From: Robiginitomaculum sp.
GTDB taxonomy: Bacteria > Pseudomonadota > Alphaproteobacteria > Caulobacterales > Maricaulaceae
Assembly: GCA_002733805.1 (NCBI GenBank)
Contig: NVXG01000032.1
Location: 1-64,000 of the forward strand
Direction: 5' to 3'
Length of the DNA stretch: 64,000 nucleotides
The position numbers and the translations under genes were made by a program. Positions 11,182 to 39,765 of the stretch are shown here, in pieces. A model generated the notes under the pieces. That model did not search any database, had not been told where the DNA came from, and was given only the letters and a program-made list of their open reading frames with translations. Each line of letters begins with the position of its first letter. The stretch's first letter is position 1.

Positions 11182-14100
11182 TTATTCCTTGCCGGACCCG
11201 CCGCCACCGGGGGTTTCAATTTCCACGCTGTCGCCGGGTTGAACCTCAATCTGAAAACAACCTTCTAACTCATGGACAGTTCCATCGGCCCGGATTACAC
11301 GCTGCGCGCCGCTGTTTCCCCATTCACCACCATCCAAACCGGGAGCTAAAGTCTGCCGCCGGGAGGAAAGTAGGGCCACGTCCATGGCCGCCAAGAACGT
11401 CACTTGCCTTCGGCTGCCATCGCCCCCCCGGTAATAACCATCGCCGCCGCTGCCAAAACGCACCTCATGGGCTTCGATACGAACCGGGAACCGGCTTTCC
11501 AGTACTTCGACATCGGTCATGGCCGAATTGGTCATGTGGGTGTGGACTGCACTGGCACCATCGCGGGTTTGACTGGCCCCGGCCCCGCCGCAAATTGTCT
11601 CGTAATACTGATGATCCGCATTGCCAAAGGTGAAATTATTCATGGTGCCCTGACTGGCCGCCAACGCATCGGTGGCCAGAAACAACGCATCAACTACGTG
11701 TTGCGAGGTTTCCACATTGCCCGCCACCACCGCAGCAGGCGGGTCTGGGTCGAGCAGAGAGTGCGGCCCAATGCGAATGTCCAGCGGGATCAAACAACCC
11801 TCGTTAAGCGGGATGTCCTGCTGGGCCAAGCAGCGAAAAACGTAGATCACCGCAGCCCGCGCCACGGATCGTGGCGCATTGAAATTGTTGACCATGGTCG
11901 GTGAAGTACCGGCGAAATCAACAATGGCCGAGCGAGTGGCTAGATCAACGGTGATTTTCACTTTGATCACCGCCCCGCAATCCATATGGATTTCGGCCTC
12001 GCCATCGCTCAATTGATCAATTACTTGCCGCACGGCAGCTTCCGCATTGTCCTGAATATGGCCCATATAGGCCAGAACCAGCTCCGGACCGTGATGATTG
12101 ATCATTTCGCTCAGTGCATTGATCCCGGTGCGGCAAGCGGCAATTTGCGCCTTCAAATCGGCAATATTCTGATCCGGATTGCGAGCTGGCCATGGACCAG
12201 AACCCAAAATATCCCGGACGACCTTGTGTTCGAATTGACCATTTTTGACAATTTTAATGGCTTCGAACTGCACACCTTCTTCGGCTATATCGGTCGAAAA
12301 AGGTGGCATGGAGCCGGGTTGTATCCCGCCAATATCTGCATGGTGGCCACGGGACGCGACTAGAAACAATCGTTTTCCCGATGCATCAAATACCGGCTCA
12401 ACCAAAGTAATATCTGGAATATGAGTCCCCCCGGCATAAGGCGAATTTAGCGCCACCACATCGCCCGGACCCAGATTGGGATGGGCCTCCAACACGGCGC
12501 GCACACTGTCAGACATGGAACCCAGATGCACCGGCATGTGCGGGGCATTGGCCACCAAACTACCCGTGCCATCAAACACCGCACAGGAAAAATCGAGCCG
12601 CTCTTTCATGTTGACCGAGTGAGCGGTGCGAGCCAGCACCCGGCCCATATGTTCGGCCACCCCCATAAAGCGGCGATTGAACAGCTCCAACTGCACCGGA
12701 TCGACCGGATGTGGTTTGATCTCTTTTTTTACGATTTCGGTGCCGGTCAGGATCAGCATGCCCGTCGCGTCCATATGGGCCTGCCAGCCGGGTTTGAGCA
12801 TGATCTGCGAATGAGTTTGCAAGATCAAAGCCGGGCCTTCAATGATCTGCCCGACGGCCAGTAAATCGTGGTGCCAGACGGGAACGTCTTGCCATTTCCC
12901 CTCATTCCAGATCGGGGTCTGGTGGCTGCTTTGCCCAACCGGGCGCGCCGCAATTTCTGATGCCGGTTCCTGAACGATACCCGGCTCACCTTGCATTTTT
13001 ACTTCCAGCGAATCCATTACCAATGGGGTATCATCCAGATAAAACCCAAACAGTTTTTGATGTTGCGCCGCGAACTGTTGGCTCATCAATTGTTCGGTTG
13101 CCAGCTCAATCCGTATGGCGGTGTCCGATCCCTTCACCCGCATTTCGATATGGGTTTCGGTGCAAAGACTTTGCGACCCAACCAGCATCAGAGCCAGATC
13201 AGCACCGGTTTGTTCGGCCAGTTGTCCAGCTTTCTCCTGGACTTTTCTCAAATTGTTCGATGAAAGTTCCAAGCCCAATGCCATCCGTCCGATAGCTTCG
13301 GGACGGGCCAAGCCCATGCCCAACGCCGAGAGCAAGCTGGCTTGTGGATGGACCAAGGCCGTACCAATGCCCAGCTTCTCGGCCACATAGAGCGCCATCT
13401 GGCCCCCGGCTCCACCAAAGCTGGCCAGTGCATATTCCGCCGGATCCTCGCCTTCCTGCACGGTCATGGCGTGTACGGCTCGCGCCATGCTCTCGGCGGC
13501 AATTTCCAGAAATCCTTCGGCAGCTTCGCGGTGATCGGCCAAGCCCAATTGCCCGGCCAGTTCGATCAGCACACGATCCGCCGCATCGCGATCCAGTCCA
13601 GCATCGCCAGTTTTGCCAAACACATGCGGAAATCCGCCGGGATCAATTCGGCCCAACACCAGATTAGCATCGGTCACGGTGGCCGGGCCGCCTCGCCCGT
13701 AACAGGCCGGGCCGGGAATCGCCCCGGCACTGTGCGGTCCCACCTGGGCGCGCCCGCTTTTGACTTGCAGGATTGAGCCACCACCGGCGGCGATGGTATG
13801 GATATCCAGCATGGGCGCGCGCAGCAAAATACCAGCCGGACGGTTCAAGGAGCGCATTTGGCGTTGTGCGCCGCTCACCCGGCTGACATCGGTTGATGTA
13901 CCACCCATGTCGAAACCAATGACTTTGGTAAACCCGGAGGCGAGCGCAGTTCCCGCCATACCAACCACCCCACCGGCTGGTCCCGATAACACGGCGTCCC
14001 GACCCCGAAAACCAGCACTTTCAGTCAAGCCACCGGATGATTTCATAAAGACCAAATTTGCCCCGTGCAGACGTTTCTGGAACCCGGCAATCCCTTCGTT

Positions 14101-14766
14101 CAAAATCGGGGTTAACCCCGCATCCATCACCAGTGTCGAGCATCGGGGCACAAATTTGATCAACGGATCAATCCGGCTGGTGGTGATATGGCTAAAACCC
14201 GCCTCGGCGGCCAATACGGCCAATTGGTCCTCATGTTCGGAATACCGATAGCCGTGAACCAGACAAATCGCCACCGAGCGACAACCGCGCCGTCTGGCCC
14301 GGCGCAGACGCTTGGCAATGGGTTTGAGGTCCAGCGGGCGCACCACTTCGCCGGAAACCCCAATTCGTTCGTCGATTTCCATACACTCATCAAACAACGG
14401 CTCAATCTGCTCGATATCCAGTGCAAAAATATCGGGCCGCATCTGATCCCCGATCAACAGAGCATCGGCAAAGCCTTTGGTGGTCAGCAACAAGGTCGAA
14501 GCCTGTTTGCGCTCTAGCAGGGCATTGGTGGCCAAGGTGGTACCCATGCGAACCTGCCTGACCAGACCCTCAGGCAAGGGTTGATGCTCGGCCAGACCCA
14601 AGATTTGCCAGATCCCGGCAGTGGCCGCATCTTGGTACTGGCCCGGGTTGACCGACAGCAATTTACGCACATGCCATTTGCCTTCCGGGTTACAGCCCAG
14701 AATGTCGGTAAAAGTGCCGCCACGATCAATCAAAAAATCCCAACCGGGTTTTGTTGCTTTTTGCAT
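11182..14766 (-). CDS. 5-oxoprolinase (fused hydantoinase A/B type)
   Basis: A 1194-residue protein joining the HyuA-type ATP-binding half to the HyuB-type half. This is the architecture and length of ATP-dependent 5-oxoprolinase, which opens 5-oxoproline to glutamate. The N-terminal phosphate-binding motif DRGGTFTD is at residues 14-21. A second actin-like motif, GFDMGGTSTDVSRV, is in the middle of the A half. The B half begins near FNRRFMGVAEHMG and contains the TAHSVNMKERLDFSCAVFD block. The frame is open for 111 codons upstream, but ATG at 14766 (MQKATKPGWDF) starts the conserved domain. Hydantoinase activity on another cyclic amide cannot be excluded. It is divergent from the TerB/J-domain gene, 70 bases away. 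Confidence 0.9.
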   Translation of the reverse strand: MQKATKPGWDFLIDRGGTFTDILGCNPEGKWHVRKLLSVNPGQYQDAATAGIWQILGLAEHQPLPEGLVRQVRMGTTLATNALLERKQASTLLLTTKGFADALLIGDQMRPDIFALDIEQIEPLFDECMEIDERIGVSGEVVRPLDLKPIAKRLRRARRRGCRSVAICLVHGYRYSEHEDQLAVLAAEAGFSHITTSRIDPLIKFVPRCSTLVMDAGLTPILNEGIAGFQKRLHGANLVFMKSSGGLTESAGFRGRDAVLSGPAGGVVGMAGTALASGFTKVIGFDMGGTSTDVSRVSGAQRQMRSLNRPAGILLRAPMLDIHTIAAGGGSILQVKSGRAQVGPHSAGAIPGPACYGRGGPATVTDANLVLGRIDPGGFPHVFGKTGDAGLDRDAADRVLIELAGQLGLADHREAAEGFLEIAAESMARAVHAMTVQEGEDPAEYALASFGGAGGQMALYVAEKLGIGTALVHPQASLLSALGMGLARPEAIGRMALGLELSSNNLRKVQEKAGQLAEQTGADLALMLVGSQSLCTETHIEMRVKGSDTAIRIELATEQLMSQQFAAQHQKLFGFYLDDTPLVMDSLEVKMQGEPGIVQEPASEIAARPVGQSSHQTPIWNEGKWQDVPVWHHDLLAVGQIIEGPALILQTHSQIMLKPGWQAHMDATGMLILTGTEIVKKEIKPHPVDPVQLELFNRRFMGVAEHMGRVLARTAHSVNMKERLDFSCAVFDGTGSLVANAPHMPVHLGSMSDSVRAVLEAHPNLGPGDVVALNSPYAGGTHIPDITLVEPVFDASGKRLFLVASRGHHADIGGIQPGSMPPFSTDIAEEGVQFEAIKIVKNGQFEHKVVRDILGSGPWPARNPDQNIADLKAQIAACRTGINALSEMINHHGPELVLAYMGHIQDNAEAAVRQVIDQLSDGEAEIHMDCGAVIKVKITVDLATRSAIVDFAGTSPTMVNNFNAPRSVARAAVIYVFRCLAQQDIPLNEGCLIPLDIRIGPHSLLDPDPPAAVVAGNVETSQHVVDALFLATDALAASQGTMNNFTFGNADHQYYETICGGAGASQTRDGASAVHTHMTNSAMTDVEVLESRFPVRIEAHEVRFGSGGDGYYRGGDGSRRQVTFLAAMDVALLSSRRQTLAPGLDGGEWGNSGAQRVIRADGTVHELEGCFQIEVQPGDSVEIETPGGGGSGKE

Positions 14767-14836
14767 GACTTCTTGCTCATACTCCAATGATCGAACCAAG
14801 GCGATTTTGCCGTGGGAATCACCGGAGAGTACCCAA

Positions 14837-15538
14837 GTGGGATTGTGGCGCAAGTTGATTGAGATCGGAGCCAGAGCCGCCGACTTGCTGGTGGACCGTA
14901 CAGCCGACAGTTTCCCGCAAGATCGACGCATTGATGATGCGAGTTTTGCCGCAGCTTTAATTGCGTTAAGCGCCAAGATGGCCAAGGCGGACGGTCTGGT
15001 TACGTCTGACGAAGTCATTGCCTTTCGGCAAATCTTTTCGGTGCCCCCCGAAGCCGAAAAAGACGTGGCCAAACTGTTCGACATGTTTCGCGAAACCACT
15101 TTGGGCTACGAATCATACGCCAAGCAGATCGCCCGCAAATTCCGCTGCTGCCCGTTTGTGCTCGAAGATGTGTTGGATGGTCTGTTTCACATCGCCAAAG
15201 CCGATGGCGTGGTAACCGATGAAGAAGAGAAATTCCTACACACTGTTTCGGATATTTTTGGGTTTTCCACCCGCGAATATCGACGCATCCGAGCCTCGCG
15301 GCTGGGCCGCGAGCCAGATGATCCCTATTTAATTTTGGGCATTGATGAAAGTATTTCAGACGATGACCTCAAAACAGCCTTTCGACGGATGGCTTCCAAC
15401 AACCACCCGGACCGAGTTCTAGCCCGTGGTTTACCAGTCGAATTGCAGGAATTGGCCAACGCCAAAATGGCCATGATTAATCTGGCTTATGACAAAATAA
15501 TTGCCGAACGAGCGGTGGATCAAAATCTTGTGCATTGA
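14837..15538 (+). CDS. DjlA-like co-chaperone with TerB and J domains
   Basis: A 233-residue protein. A TerB-like helical domain (about residues 40-150) contains the repeated acidic segments AKMAKADGLVTSDE and IAKADGVVTDEEEKF. A C-terminal J domain starts near DPYLILGI and carries the HPD tripeptide in SNNHPDR, needed to stimulate DnaK ATPase. This is the layout of DjlA, but the usual N-terminal membrane helix is not seen. The frame is open far upstream over the divergent gene. I choose GTG at 14837 because GGAGAG (14824-14829) lies seven bases before it; TTG at 14843 is the alternative. The gene precedes a small membrane protein and an amidase, suggesting a shared cell-envelope unit. Confidence 0.85.
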   Translation: MGLWRKLIEIGARAADLLVDRTADSFPQDRRIDDASFAAALIALSAKMAKADGLVTSDEVIAFRQIFSVPPEAEKDVAKLFDMFRETTLGYESYAKQIARKFRCCPFVLEDVLDGLFHIAKADGVVTDEEEKFLHTVSDIFGFSTREYRRIRASRLGREPDDPYLILGIDESISDDDLKTAFRRMASNNHPDRVLARGLPVELQELANAKMAMINLAYDKIIAERAVDQNLVH

Positions 15539-16698: not shown

Positions 16699-17079
16699 GG
16701 ACCAGATGGCTGGGTGATCGCGGATGGCGCAAGCTATCCGAGGAAAGTCCGGGCTTCATAGAGACAGGGTGCCGGATAATGCCCGGCGGGCGCAAGCTCA
16801 GGGAAAGTGCCACAGAAAGGAAACCGCCGCTTTGGCTTCGGCTAGATCGGTAAGGATGAAAGGGTGCGGTAAGAGCGCACCGCTTGGCTGGCAACAGACA
16901 AGGCATGGTAAACCCCACTCGAAGCAAAACCAAATAGGGATGACATATGGCGGGTCTTTGCGCTGTCATCCGGGTCGGTTGCATGAGGTGTCTGGCAACA
17001 GGCATCCCAGATGAATGATCGCCTCTCCTGACCTCGCGTCAGGAAGACAGAACCCGGCTTACAGGCCATCTGGTCCACT
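16699..17079 (+). ncRNA. rnpB: RNase P RNA (type A)
   Basis: The catalytic RNA that trims tRNA 5' leaders. The conserved core GAGGAAAGTCCGGGC is at 16740-16754, ACAGAAA...ACCGCC follows near 16812, and the 3' P4 partner GACAGAACCCGGCTTAC is near 17046-17062. The ends pair as helix P1: GGACCAGATGGC at 16699 with GCCATCTGGTCC ending at 17076. This fixes both the strand and the limits to within a few bases. It is of ordinary bacterial A type and about 380 bases long. No clear terminator was found downstream. Confidence 0.96.
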
Positions 17080-17135
17080 CATACGATCTTATAAAACCAC
17101 ATCTGCTGCAACAATAAGCAGTCAAATAAATCCAT

Positions 17136-18701
17136 TCAATTCTTAATTGGTATAAATATATTAATCATCATCCGCAGTGATCGGTAACGACTATCTTTGT
17201 GAAAAGAAACAAAATATCTGAGATTGGCTTCCAATATCGGGACGCTTTTTATTGAAAGGCATGGGTATTCATCATTATTTTTGACAATGGCTATAAAGTG
17301 GTCAATGTTAGCAGAAGCTCTCCTGTCAATCATGATAAACACTCCCACGCTCTCATTTTCTGACATGTATTTGAGTGGTTGAGATGGAGCGTGTTTATAT
17401 CCACGTCTTCCCCAAATTTTAAACTCAATATGGTATTTACGACCATCGGTTTTTTCAGATTCAGTAGGCGCATAGACCAATGTAAGATCCGTTCTTCCAA
17501 TTTTAGAATACTCCTCACGGTGTATGCGATCTTCGGGTTTTCTCAATAAAGCATACACCCAATCACGGACGTCTTCTTCCTTAAAAGATTGCCCCGGAGG
17601 AAACTGGTTAAAGATTTCTGGGATGGCGAAATCAAGTTGCCTAATAAAATAGGAAAAACTCGACTCATCGATGCATTTGTTAAATGTAGCAAGTTCGCTA
17701 TCAGTCGTTAATGCGTATTGAAAATAGCGATACATATACTCATATGTGTATGGTATACCTTCAGGAAATAATTCTCCATATATCTCGAGTATTCTATGGT
17801 ATATTAATGGGCTATCATATGTAACTATTGATTTGATTGAGCCATTTAAACTGTCATTTTTTCTTAAAACAGAGCAGCCTAGGTACGTTTTATCAAATTC
17901 ACAATTTTTTATATTTGTCATTATTGCTACGTATCCATCAATAATTACAGTGATGGCATTTCTATCAAACAGTACACATACGAAATACTTTGAGTTACTG
18001 CCAATAATATTGGATTCTATATACTGATCGGTGCCATTTTCATGCACCCTTAACACAAACTTGGCGCCGTGTTTGCCGGATATGCCAATACTGATTTCAG
18101 TGGAGTGTTTTGATGACCATAAAGAAAAAAATGTTAGAAATTGGTCTTCCATAATTTGACACGTTTTTGGACCGGGCTCAGCAACCATAATGACTGTTGC
18201 CGAATGTGAGCTGATGATTCCGTTGTGCTTATCATTTTCAATGTGAACGATATCCCGGTCACGGGTCTCCCCTTTTTCACCGTCCTTCGCAAAACAAGGT
18301 AATTGAATATCTGGAGGAATGGGAGATGAGGTGTATAACCCTTCCTCACATTGAAAAAAAAACACCGATATATCTGCGTGAAGTTTAACAGATGACATTA
18401 AAGTGCAAAAAACCTTTAAAGGTTTTACTGCCAGTTTATTTTGAATACTAATTTCATACCGTTTCCAGGAAGAATTGATGTTGAACTCTTCGGTTTGCGA
18501 ACTGAACGGACCCTCTAAAGAGATACGTAAACACTCCGGACCTCCAATTGATTTTGCATAAAAAGAGACGGTAGTCGCTTTTCCATTTGGGTATGCTGTT
18601 GCAATTAAGTTGCGTGTTAGAGAATTTAGGCGATATACCCGTGCCATAAGGTCATCAGCATTGGATTTTGTTGTACCTACAATTTTCATTGGATTACTCA
18701 T
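17136..18701 (-). CDS. Orphan protein with C-terminal PD-(D/E)XK-like nuclease motif and beta-rich N-terminus
   Basis: A 521-residue protein of no family I recognise. The C-terminal third has the order expected of a PD-(D/E)XK nuclease: GRTDL with Asp405, then E-F-K (Glu426, Lys428) at the end of a beta-strand, then Gln441 in an SQPLKYM helix. The upstream part (residues 40-290) is beta-rich and resembles two jelly-roll segments. One is carbohydrate-binding-like (SVSFYAKS...WKRYEISI). The second is LamG-like (FLTFFSLWSS...FVCVLFDRNAITVIIDGYVA). Base composition is clearly more AT-rich than the flanks, with codons to match, suggesting transfer. It stands alone beside rnpB. A defence or mobile-element role is an inference. 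ATG at 18701 has a weak ribosome site; Met5 is an alternative. Confidence 0.6.
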   Translation of the reverse strand: MSNPMKIVGTTKSNADDLMARVYRLNSLTRNLIATAYPNGKATTVSFYAKSIGGPECLRISLEGPFSSQTEEFNINSSWKRYEISIQNKLAVKPLKVFCTLMSSVKLHADISVFFFQCEEGLYTSSPIPPDIQLPCFAKDGEKGETRDRDIVHIENDKHNGIISSHSATVIMVAEPGPKTCQIMEDQFLTFFSLWSSKHSTEISIGISGKHGAKFVLRVHENGTDQYIESNIIGSNSKYFVCVLFDRNAITVIIDGYVAIMTNIKNCEFDKTYLGCSVLRKNDSLNGSIKSIVTYDSPLIYHRILEIYGELFPEGIPYTYEYMYRYFQYALTTDSELATFNKCIDESSFSYFIRQLDFAIPEIFNQFPPGQSFKEEDVRDWVYALLRKPEDRIHREEYSKIGRTDLTLVYAPTESEKTDGRKYHIEFKIWGRRGYKHAPSQPLKYMSENESVGVFIMIDRRASANIDHFIAIVKNNDEYPCLSIKSVPILEANLRYFVSFHKDSRYRSLRMMINIFIPIKN

Positions 18702-18996
18702 CGATTAAGATCAATCCTGATTGCACTGCTATTAATACTAGCACGTTCACAAAAATACCAGCGTTCGTTTAGAAGCGTGACGAGGTGCATTCTCAGTATG
18801 CAAATGTAATATTGAAATACCGCCAGCGCTAGCATGCTTCAACATCAAGGGGCATGAGCCCGCTCGATTCGAATACGAAGCCTGTAAACAGAAGTCATTT
18901 TTTATAAAGATACTTAACTATACCCACTCCCCAGCGAGGAGAGGAAGTCTAACGTGACAACCCGTCCTTGTGAACCGCGCCCAGTACCACCCTCTC

Positions 18997-19067
18997 GTCA
19001 TGCCCCGACTTGTTCGGGGTATCCAGCGCATGGGTGCTGGATCACCCGGACAAGCCGTGTGATGACA
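18997..19067. repeat. Imperfect palindromic intergenic repeat
   Basis: GTCATGCCCCGACTTGTTCG at one end mirrors CGGACAAGCCGTGTGATGAC at the other, with an inner TATCCAG/CTGGAT pair, making a long imperfect hairpin. It is related in its core (CCGGACTTG.TCCGGGG) to the repeats at 19107 and 39679. Elements of this REP-like kind are common between alphaproteobacterial genes. Confidence 0.75.
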
Positions 19068-19106
19068 ATTGGTGTTTGGTGATGACAGAAGAGAATAATA
19101 AAAAAG

Positions 19107-19133
19107 CTGGTCCCCGGACTTGATCCAGGGGCC
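19107..19133. repeat. Short palindromic repeat of the CCCCGGACTTGATCC type
   Basis: CTGGTCCCCGGACTTGATCC is followed at once by AGGGGCCA, forming a hairpin. The same 16-mer CCCCGGACTTGATCC appears in the repeat at 39679, 20 kb away. Confidence 0.75.
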
Positions 19134-19172
19134 ACTATTGCAAGAAATGCACTGGCGCAAACAGGCCAGCAA

Positions 19173-39678: not shown

Positions 39679-39765
39679 GTCCCCGGACTTGATCCGGGGT
39701 CCAGAGGACGGCGCCGCGAGATGGATTTCAAAAAACTGGACCCTCCGGCTTGGCCGGAGGGTCCA
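39679..39765. repeat. Paired CCGGACTTGATCC-type hairpins
   Basis: Hairpin one is GGTCCCCGGACTTGATCCGG plus GGTCC. Hairpin two is TGGACCCTCCGGCTTGGCCG plus GAGGGTCCA (39737-39765). The two face each other and may fold as a larger cruciform. Same family as 18997 and 19107. Confidence 0.82.

Follow-up and report, generated by a model that had tools for sequence, protein, structure and literature searches.

Phage and GTA head-spike fibres are the closest described counterparts of the protein treated here. The RcGTA head fibre is reported to bind the cell capsule (PMC10218006, PMC7296036), and a Leu-Gly repeat at its N-terminus reportedly fixes it to its base (PMC7296036). We analysed a window of 64,000 nt (the whole stretch of DNA, positions 1 to 64,000 of contig NVXG01000032.1 of Robiginitomaculum sp.) that carries a 521-aa gene with, in collinear order, the jelly roll, the QxExG..SxI and TRxxD motifs and the LamG-like part of the NCBIfam family GTA_spike_fiber (NF048003) and of the RcGTA head fibre Rcc01080. 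Our best explanation, to which we assign a probability of roughly 0.28, is that the gene was gained horizontally and would encode a cytosolic one-gene nuclease against phages or GTAs that uses a phage-type lectin for recognition. The features of the locus, in window coordinates, are as follows.

16702..17077, plus strand: rnpB (RF00010, 326 bits), left border of the insertion
17080..19165, no strand: approximate insertion relative to the closest relative, comprising the gene and upstream DNA (from the rnpB-SleB spacing)
17136..18701, minus strand: 521-aa gene, stop codon included, ATG start
18309..18596, minus strand: residues 36-131, carbohydrate-binding-like jelly-roll domain as in phage/GTA spike fibres (NF048003, hhalign)
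17781..18266, minus strand: residues 146-307, TRxxD motif and LamG/ConA-like domain (Laminin_G_3, hhalign)
17139..17780, minus strand: residues 308-521, C-terminal domain, tentatively PD-(D/E)XK-like (PDDEXK_9, hhalign)
17379..17489, minus strand: candidate active-site stretch D405-Q441, residues with a putative role
17487-17489, 17424-17426, 17418-17420 and 17379-17381, minus strand: codons of D405, E426, K428 and Q441, respectively

The gene, its surroundings and its relatives

The 521-aa frame is far longer than chance allows, as open stretches reached 175 codons at most in 300 Markov replicas of equal length. The gene has a GC content of 37.4% and a third-position GC of 33.5%, whereas four neighbouring genes have 55-57% and 59-63%, respectively, which bears out the AT-rich, compositionally foreign character noted in the preliminary description. 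It adjoins rnpB, as was also proposed there, across a gap of 58 bp in which the longest ATG frame has 18 codons, and two short frames of 84 and 105 codons lie upstream of it. The five neighbours scanned are ordinary and encode hydantoinase A and B in one frame, a TerB-DnaJ protein, an AmpD-like amidase, a SleB-like cell-wall hydrolase and pyruvate phosphate dikinase. Phage genes, secretion genes and a gene for DUF2793, which we take to be the RcGTA spike base, were all absent from these five. Within 11182-15538 of the window, there is an overlap between the hydantoinase A and B frame (at most 1305 codons) and the TerB-DnaJ frame, which lies on the opposite strand, and one or both of the mechanically assigned starts are probably too far upstream.

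The distance from rnpB to the SleB-like gene is 2098 bp in the window versus 191 bp in G396, which is the closest relative as judged by these two markers (rnpB 98%, SleB-like protein 91%). Genome G394 has a convergent rnpB/SleB-like pair about 38 bp apart, as calculated from match coordinates, and elsewhere in the 18-genome genus sample, wherever both markers were found, they lie on separate contigs or at a large distance from each other. A full-protein search of G396, which is 84% complete, found no copy of the gene elsewhere in that genome at E ≤ 0.1. The simplest reading is that approximately 17080-19165 was gained in the lineage of the window, in an apparently recent and horizontal event. 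Because its composition differs and the G396 site is empty, we regard the gene as foreign and acquired; the same two observations support the earlier view of a foreign gene that stands alone. The insertion contains no other long ORF, and no direct repeats framing it were found. A hairpin repeat at 19112-19131, upstream of the gene, recurs with two mismatches at 39681-39700 (0.01 second copies expected by chance). Since the two copies are nearly identical, this palindromic repeat looks like a dispersed genomic element and not like a part of the gene.

As far as the viral, phage, plasmid and genome samples searched go, the 521-aa protein is an orphan at the level of its sequence. No relative was found in viral contigs (six scans, with the whole protein, the N-terminal part, the middle part and three C-terminal queries), in genome contigs (two scans, C-terminal queries only), in phages and plasmids by tblastn (faint matches in phage H1 at E 6 and plasmid H2 at E 3) or in the PDB by sequence (best E 0.73). 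The full protein had no relative outside its own genome among 385 class, 99 relative and 398 order genomes, and neither had the C-terminus among 398 phylum genomes; these samples overlap and each includes the own genome. The two matches outside the own genome in the class and relative samples (E 0.008 and 0.05) are weak and were rejected, since they lie in unrelated-looking frames. With the C-terminus, 37 of the 398 phylum genomes, the own one included, gave matches at E ≤ 1. Five weak C-terminus loci (L041, L050, L053, L055, L057) were inspected by eye and lacked the motif; one of them, L055, has 48% identity over 29 residues (FEIWGPQGVKH versus FKIWGRRGYKH), but is without both the Glu and the Lys.

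The N-terminal spike-fibre module

The lectin-like N-terminus of the preliminary description was recovered and, by profile comparison, identified as the module of phage/GTA head-spike fibres that combines a jelly roll with a LamG-like part. The family profile NF048003 matched residues 22-130 with an E-value of 5.1e-5 and 23.9 bits, and the gene with 25.9 bits in a six-frame search, both below the family cut-off of 36 bits. Laminin_G_3 matched with E 0.048 when the whole protein was the query and with E 0.0046 when the middle piece was used, both under the curated cut-off. PHROGs yielded weak matches only (E 0.28, 0.19 and 0.029). BLASTP against the genome's own spike fibre gave E 0.77, and the relation is thus visible to profile methods only.

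We compared the protein by hhalign with an alignment of seven spike proteins that by eye resemble the combination of jelly roll and LamG. Residues 36-307 aligned collinearly over 242 columns (E 8.2e-7 for one comparison). The jelly-roll domain ends in FFFQCEEGLYTSSPIPP, which is aligned with QLExGxxAxSxI of the family, and hhalign paired FQCEEGLYTSSPIPP with this same motif and TRDRD with TRAAD. In a Pfam search of six of these spike proteins at E ≤ 0.1, Laminin_G_3 was found in two of six and CBM_4_9, weakly, in three of six; the name LamG therefore rests partly on the alignment. Residues 1-310 scored 55.5 against the spike alignment (shuffle maximum 18.9, 0 of 60 shuffles as good). Residues 1-140 alone reached E 7.2e-6 and a score of 43.0 (shuffle maximum 18.7, 0/60), residues 141-310 alone E 0.021 and a score of 22.2 with a thin margin to the shuffle maximum of 20.8 (0/60), and the C-terminus a score of 10.9, which 40 of 60 shuffles equalled. 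On these shuffle controls, and as a statement about sequence profiles, the relation of the jelly roll to spike fibres is secure, that of the LamG-like part is secure mainly through its collinearity with the jelly roll, and the C-terminal domain lies outside the module.

The match starts at column 130 of the 393-column profile, which leaves the protein without the first third of the module. No remnant of it was seen by eye in three upstream frames, and the Leu-Gly repeat described for the RcGTA fibre is absent from the start of the 521-aa protein.

The C-terminal domain and the nuclease question

The preliminary description had proposed a PD-(D/E)XK-like nuclease C-terminus on the basis of D405, E426-x-K428 and Q441. 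All of these residues are present at those positions in the 521-aa protein and form the series D ... (E/D)xK ... Q, letters that are not strong evidence by themselves. The Pfam family PDDEXK_9 (PF08011) matched residues 306-521 with E 0.011 and residues 388-480 with E 0.0094, values that refer to the whole library of 24736 families. The respective scores of 16.1 and 16.3 bits do not reach the gathering cut-off of 25.5, and the family was absent from the Pfam listing when the whole protein was the query. In the same run, other pieces of the protein matched Peptidase_C39 (middle, E 0.012) and Rep_trans (N-terminal, E 0.023), both of which we take for chance, and a PDDEXK_9 match at E 0.01 is therefore not strong.

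We aligned nine PDDEXK_9 domains taken from class genomes, and hhalign kept eight of them. Comparison with the C-terminus gave E 0.033, a result matched by two of 100 shuffles. The register places GRTDLTL with GRADLLL and IEFK with LEFK, such that G, D, E and K of the C-terminus fall on invariant PDDEXK_9 columns; the aligned part stops before Q441. A six-frame search with PF08011 covered 289 class genomes, among them the own genome, and the 521-aa gene was not listed at E ≤ 0.5. At this threshold 20 genomes had matches, four of them over the cut-off. Among six weaker matches, PD-(D/E)XK-like motifs were seen by eye in three (L105, L107 and L109; E 0.0007, 0.003 and 0.011) and not in the other three (L108, L112 and L115; E 0.005, 0.046 and 0.12), and matches of such size are therefore informative, not decisive. 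The same search found 14 and at least 16 PDDEXK_9 matches at E ≤ 0.5, fragments included, in the 1.7 and 1.9 Mb genomes G006 and G134, respectively, an apparent expansion of the family.

AlphaFold models computed without an alignment had a pLDDT of 42.9 for residues 306-521 and of 34.3 for residues 366-495. The former has strands at D405 and at E426-K428, and its further helices and strands follow one another as the fold would allow, at a pLDDT of 26-37 near the motif that deprives this of the value of evidence. Foldseek with the same model (pLDDT 42.9) returned 52 matches at E ≤ 10, none of the 52 at E ≤ 0.001, and no title of a PD-(D/E)XK enzyme occurred among the 50 matches listed.

We consider the chances evenly balanced that residues 308-521 adopt a PD-(D/E)XK fold. 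What stands of the proposed nuclease is suggestive only: the two PDDEXK_9 E-values and the G-R-x-D and E-F-K stretches in register speak for it, while the sub-threshold score, the two equally good shuffles in 100 and the gene's absence from the six-frame list speak against it. The same observations frame the main alternative, namely that the C-terminal domain is something other than a nuclease, that the agreement of D405, E426, K428 and Q441 with the motif is a coincidence and that the domain has another role, for example in binding or oligomerisation. We hold this to be quite possible, if clearly short of an even chance; the presumed chance matches to other families at comparable E-values and the uninformative AlphaFold models add to its standing, which is lowered by E-values that already cover the entire family library and by four residues that coincide with invariant columns.

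Possible functions and comparison with known systems

Under the reading that we prefer, a lone and apparently recently acquired gene would join the sugar-binding part of a spike fibre, without its first third, in the N-terminal 300 residues to a possible PD-(D/E)XK-type nuclease in the C-terminal 214 residues. The protein, in which no signal peptide was seen by eye, would remain cytosolic. Its lectin may bind a sugar-bearing or spike-related component of the incoming phage or GTA, such as glycosylated DNA or the spike base, and binding would position or release the nuclease, which would cut the DNA and thereby provide defence by a single gene. No PADLOC defence model matched the protein. In its boldest form, which we consider a long shot, the protein would be a one-protein restriction factor, in which the captured spike lectin reads a sugar mark on phage DNA or grips spike parts as a decoy and the fused PD-(D/E)XK nuclease destroys the DNA.

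The protein might instead be a phage- or GTA-like spike enzyme whose C-terminus acts extracellularly on polymers around the target, which would be extracellular DNA if the domain is a nuclease. In 289 class genomes we found 38 NF048003 matches in 24 genomes, the 521-aa gene among them. The loci of 18 of the 37 other matches were read, and eight of these 18 were also scanned against Pfam. In one (L013:296-2296) the spike-fibre domain is followed by GH16 (PF00722, E 5.5e-18) and in another (L021:52-2220) by a SASA esterase (PF03629, E 1e-10). Enzymes behind the spike module are therefore precedented, and the enzyme tails on this module seem to be exchangeable; by eye, a PD-(D/E)XK-like C-terminus was present in none of the 18 other loci. 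Outside the window, at approximately 76249-78645 of the same contig (C16; L100:12249-14645), a DUF2793 gene lies near a spike-fibre gene (NF048003, E 9.6e-43). This pair is located about 58 kb from the 521-aa gene among genes that by eye resemble polysaccharide-synthesis genes, and is probably the genome's own GTA head-spike pair. Despite the precedents and the presence of such a pair, we regard an extracellular spike enzyme as unlikely, though deserving of consideration, given that the module lacks its first third, that none of the five scanned neighbours is a phage gene and that the protein has no signal peptide recognizable by eye.

Slimmer still is the prospect that the gene is a piece of a phage structural gene, open by chance and without present function: its orphan status, foreign composition and truncated spike module fit this, but 521 codons are open at 37% GC, and the two lectin parts share a single frame with the 214-residue tail. 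Least probable of all is a toxin that carries a nuclease part and is secreted or delivered by contact. Its lectin and nuclease could conceivably serve targeting and killing, but this reading is opposed by the lack of a visible signal peptide, of a secretion gene among the five scanned neighbours and of an immunity gene directly downstream, where the 58 bp to rnpB hold only the 18-codon frame.

If the tail is a nuclease, the protein would be a phage-type receptor-binding lectin joined to a DNA-cutting domain. To our knowledge no such fusion has been described, and a literature search covering titles and abstract openings found no phage-type receptor-binding lectin fused to a nuclease. Bacteria could then turn the sugar grip of an invader into a sensor and derive immunity from the invader's own receptor-binding module, and a two-domain protein would lend itself to simple tests. 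Even with a tail of another kind, the locus would be an unusual single-gene insertion beside rnpB that carries a spike module without its anchor.

In comparison with GTA_spike_fiber, the 521-aa protein scores under the family cut-off, lacks the first third, in which the particle anchor is expected, and is encoded by a gene that stands alone, without a spike-base gene (DUF2793) among the five scanned neighbours. It also has an additional C-terminal domain of 214 residues, whereas the seven aligned family proteins end, by eye, at the LamG-like part. With PDDEXK_9 it shares a register in which GRTDLTL ... IEFK corresponds to GRADLLL ... LEFK, again at a score below the cut-off, whereas the three long PDDEXK_9 proteins that were read (L101, L102 and L104) have an N-terminus other than a lectin, presumably ATPase-like. 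The proteins with GH16 or SASA esterase have the same order of a spike-fibre domain and a catalytic C-terminal domain, but by family name their tails act on carbohydrate, whereas the tail of the 521-aa protein resembles a nuclease. Type IV restriction enzymes (GmrSD and the like) cut glycosylated DNA, and recognition of sugar on phage DNA would be common to these enzymes and the 521-aa protein if the boldest reading is right.
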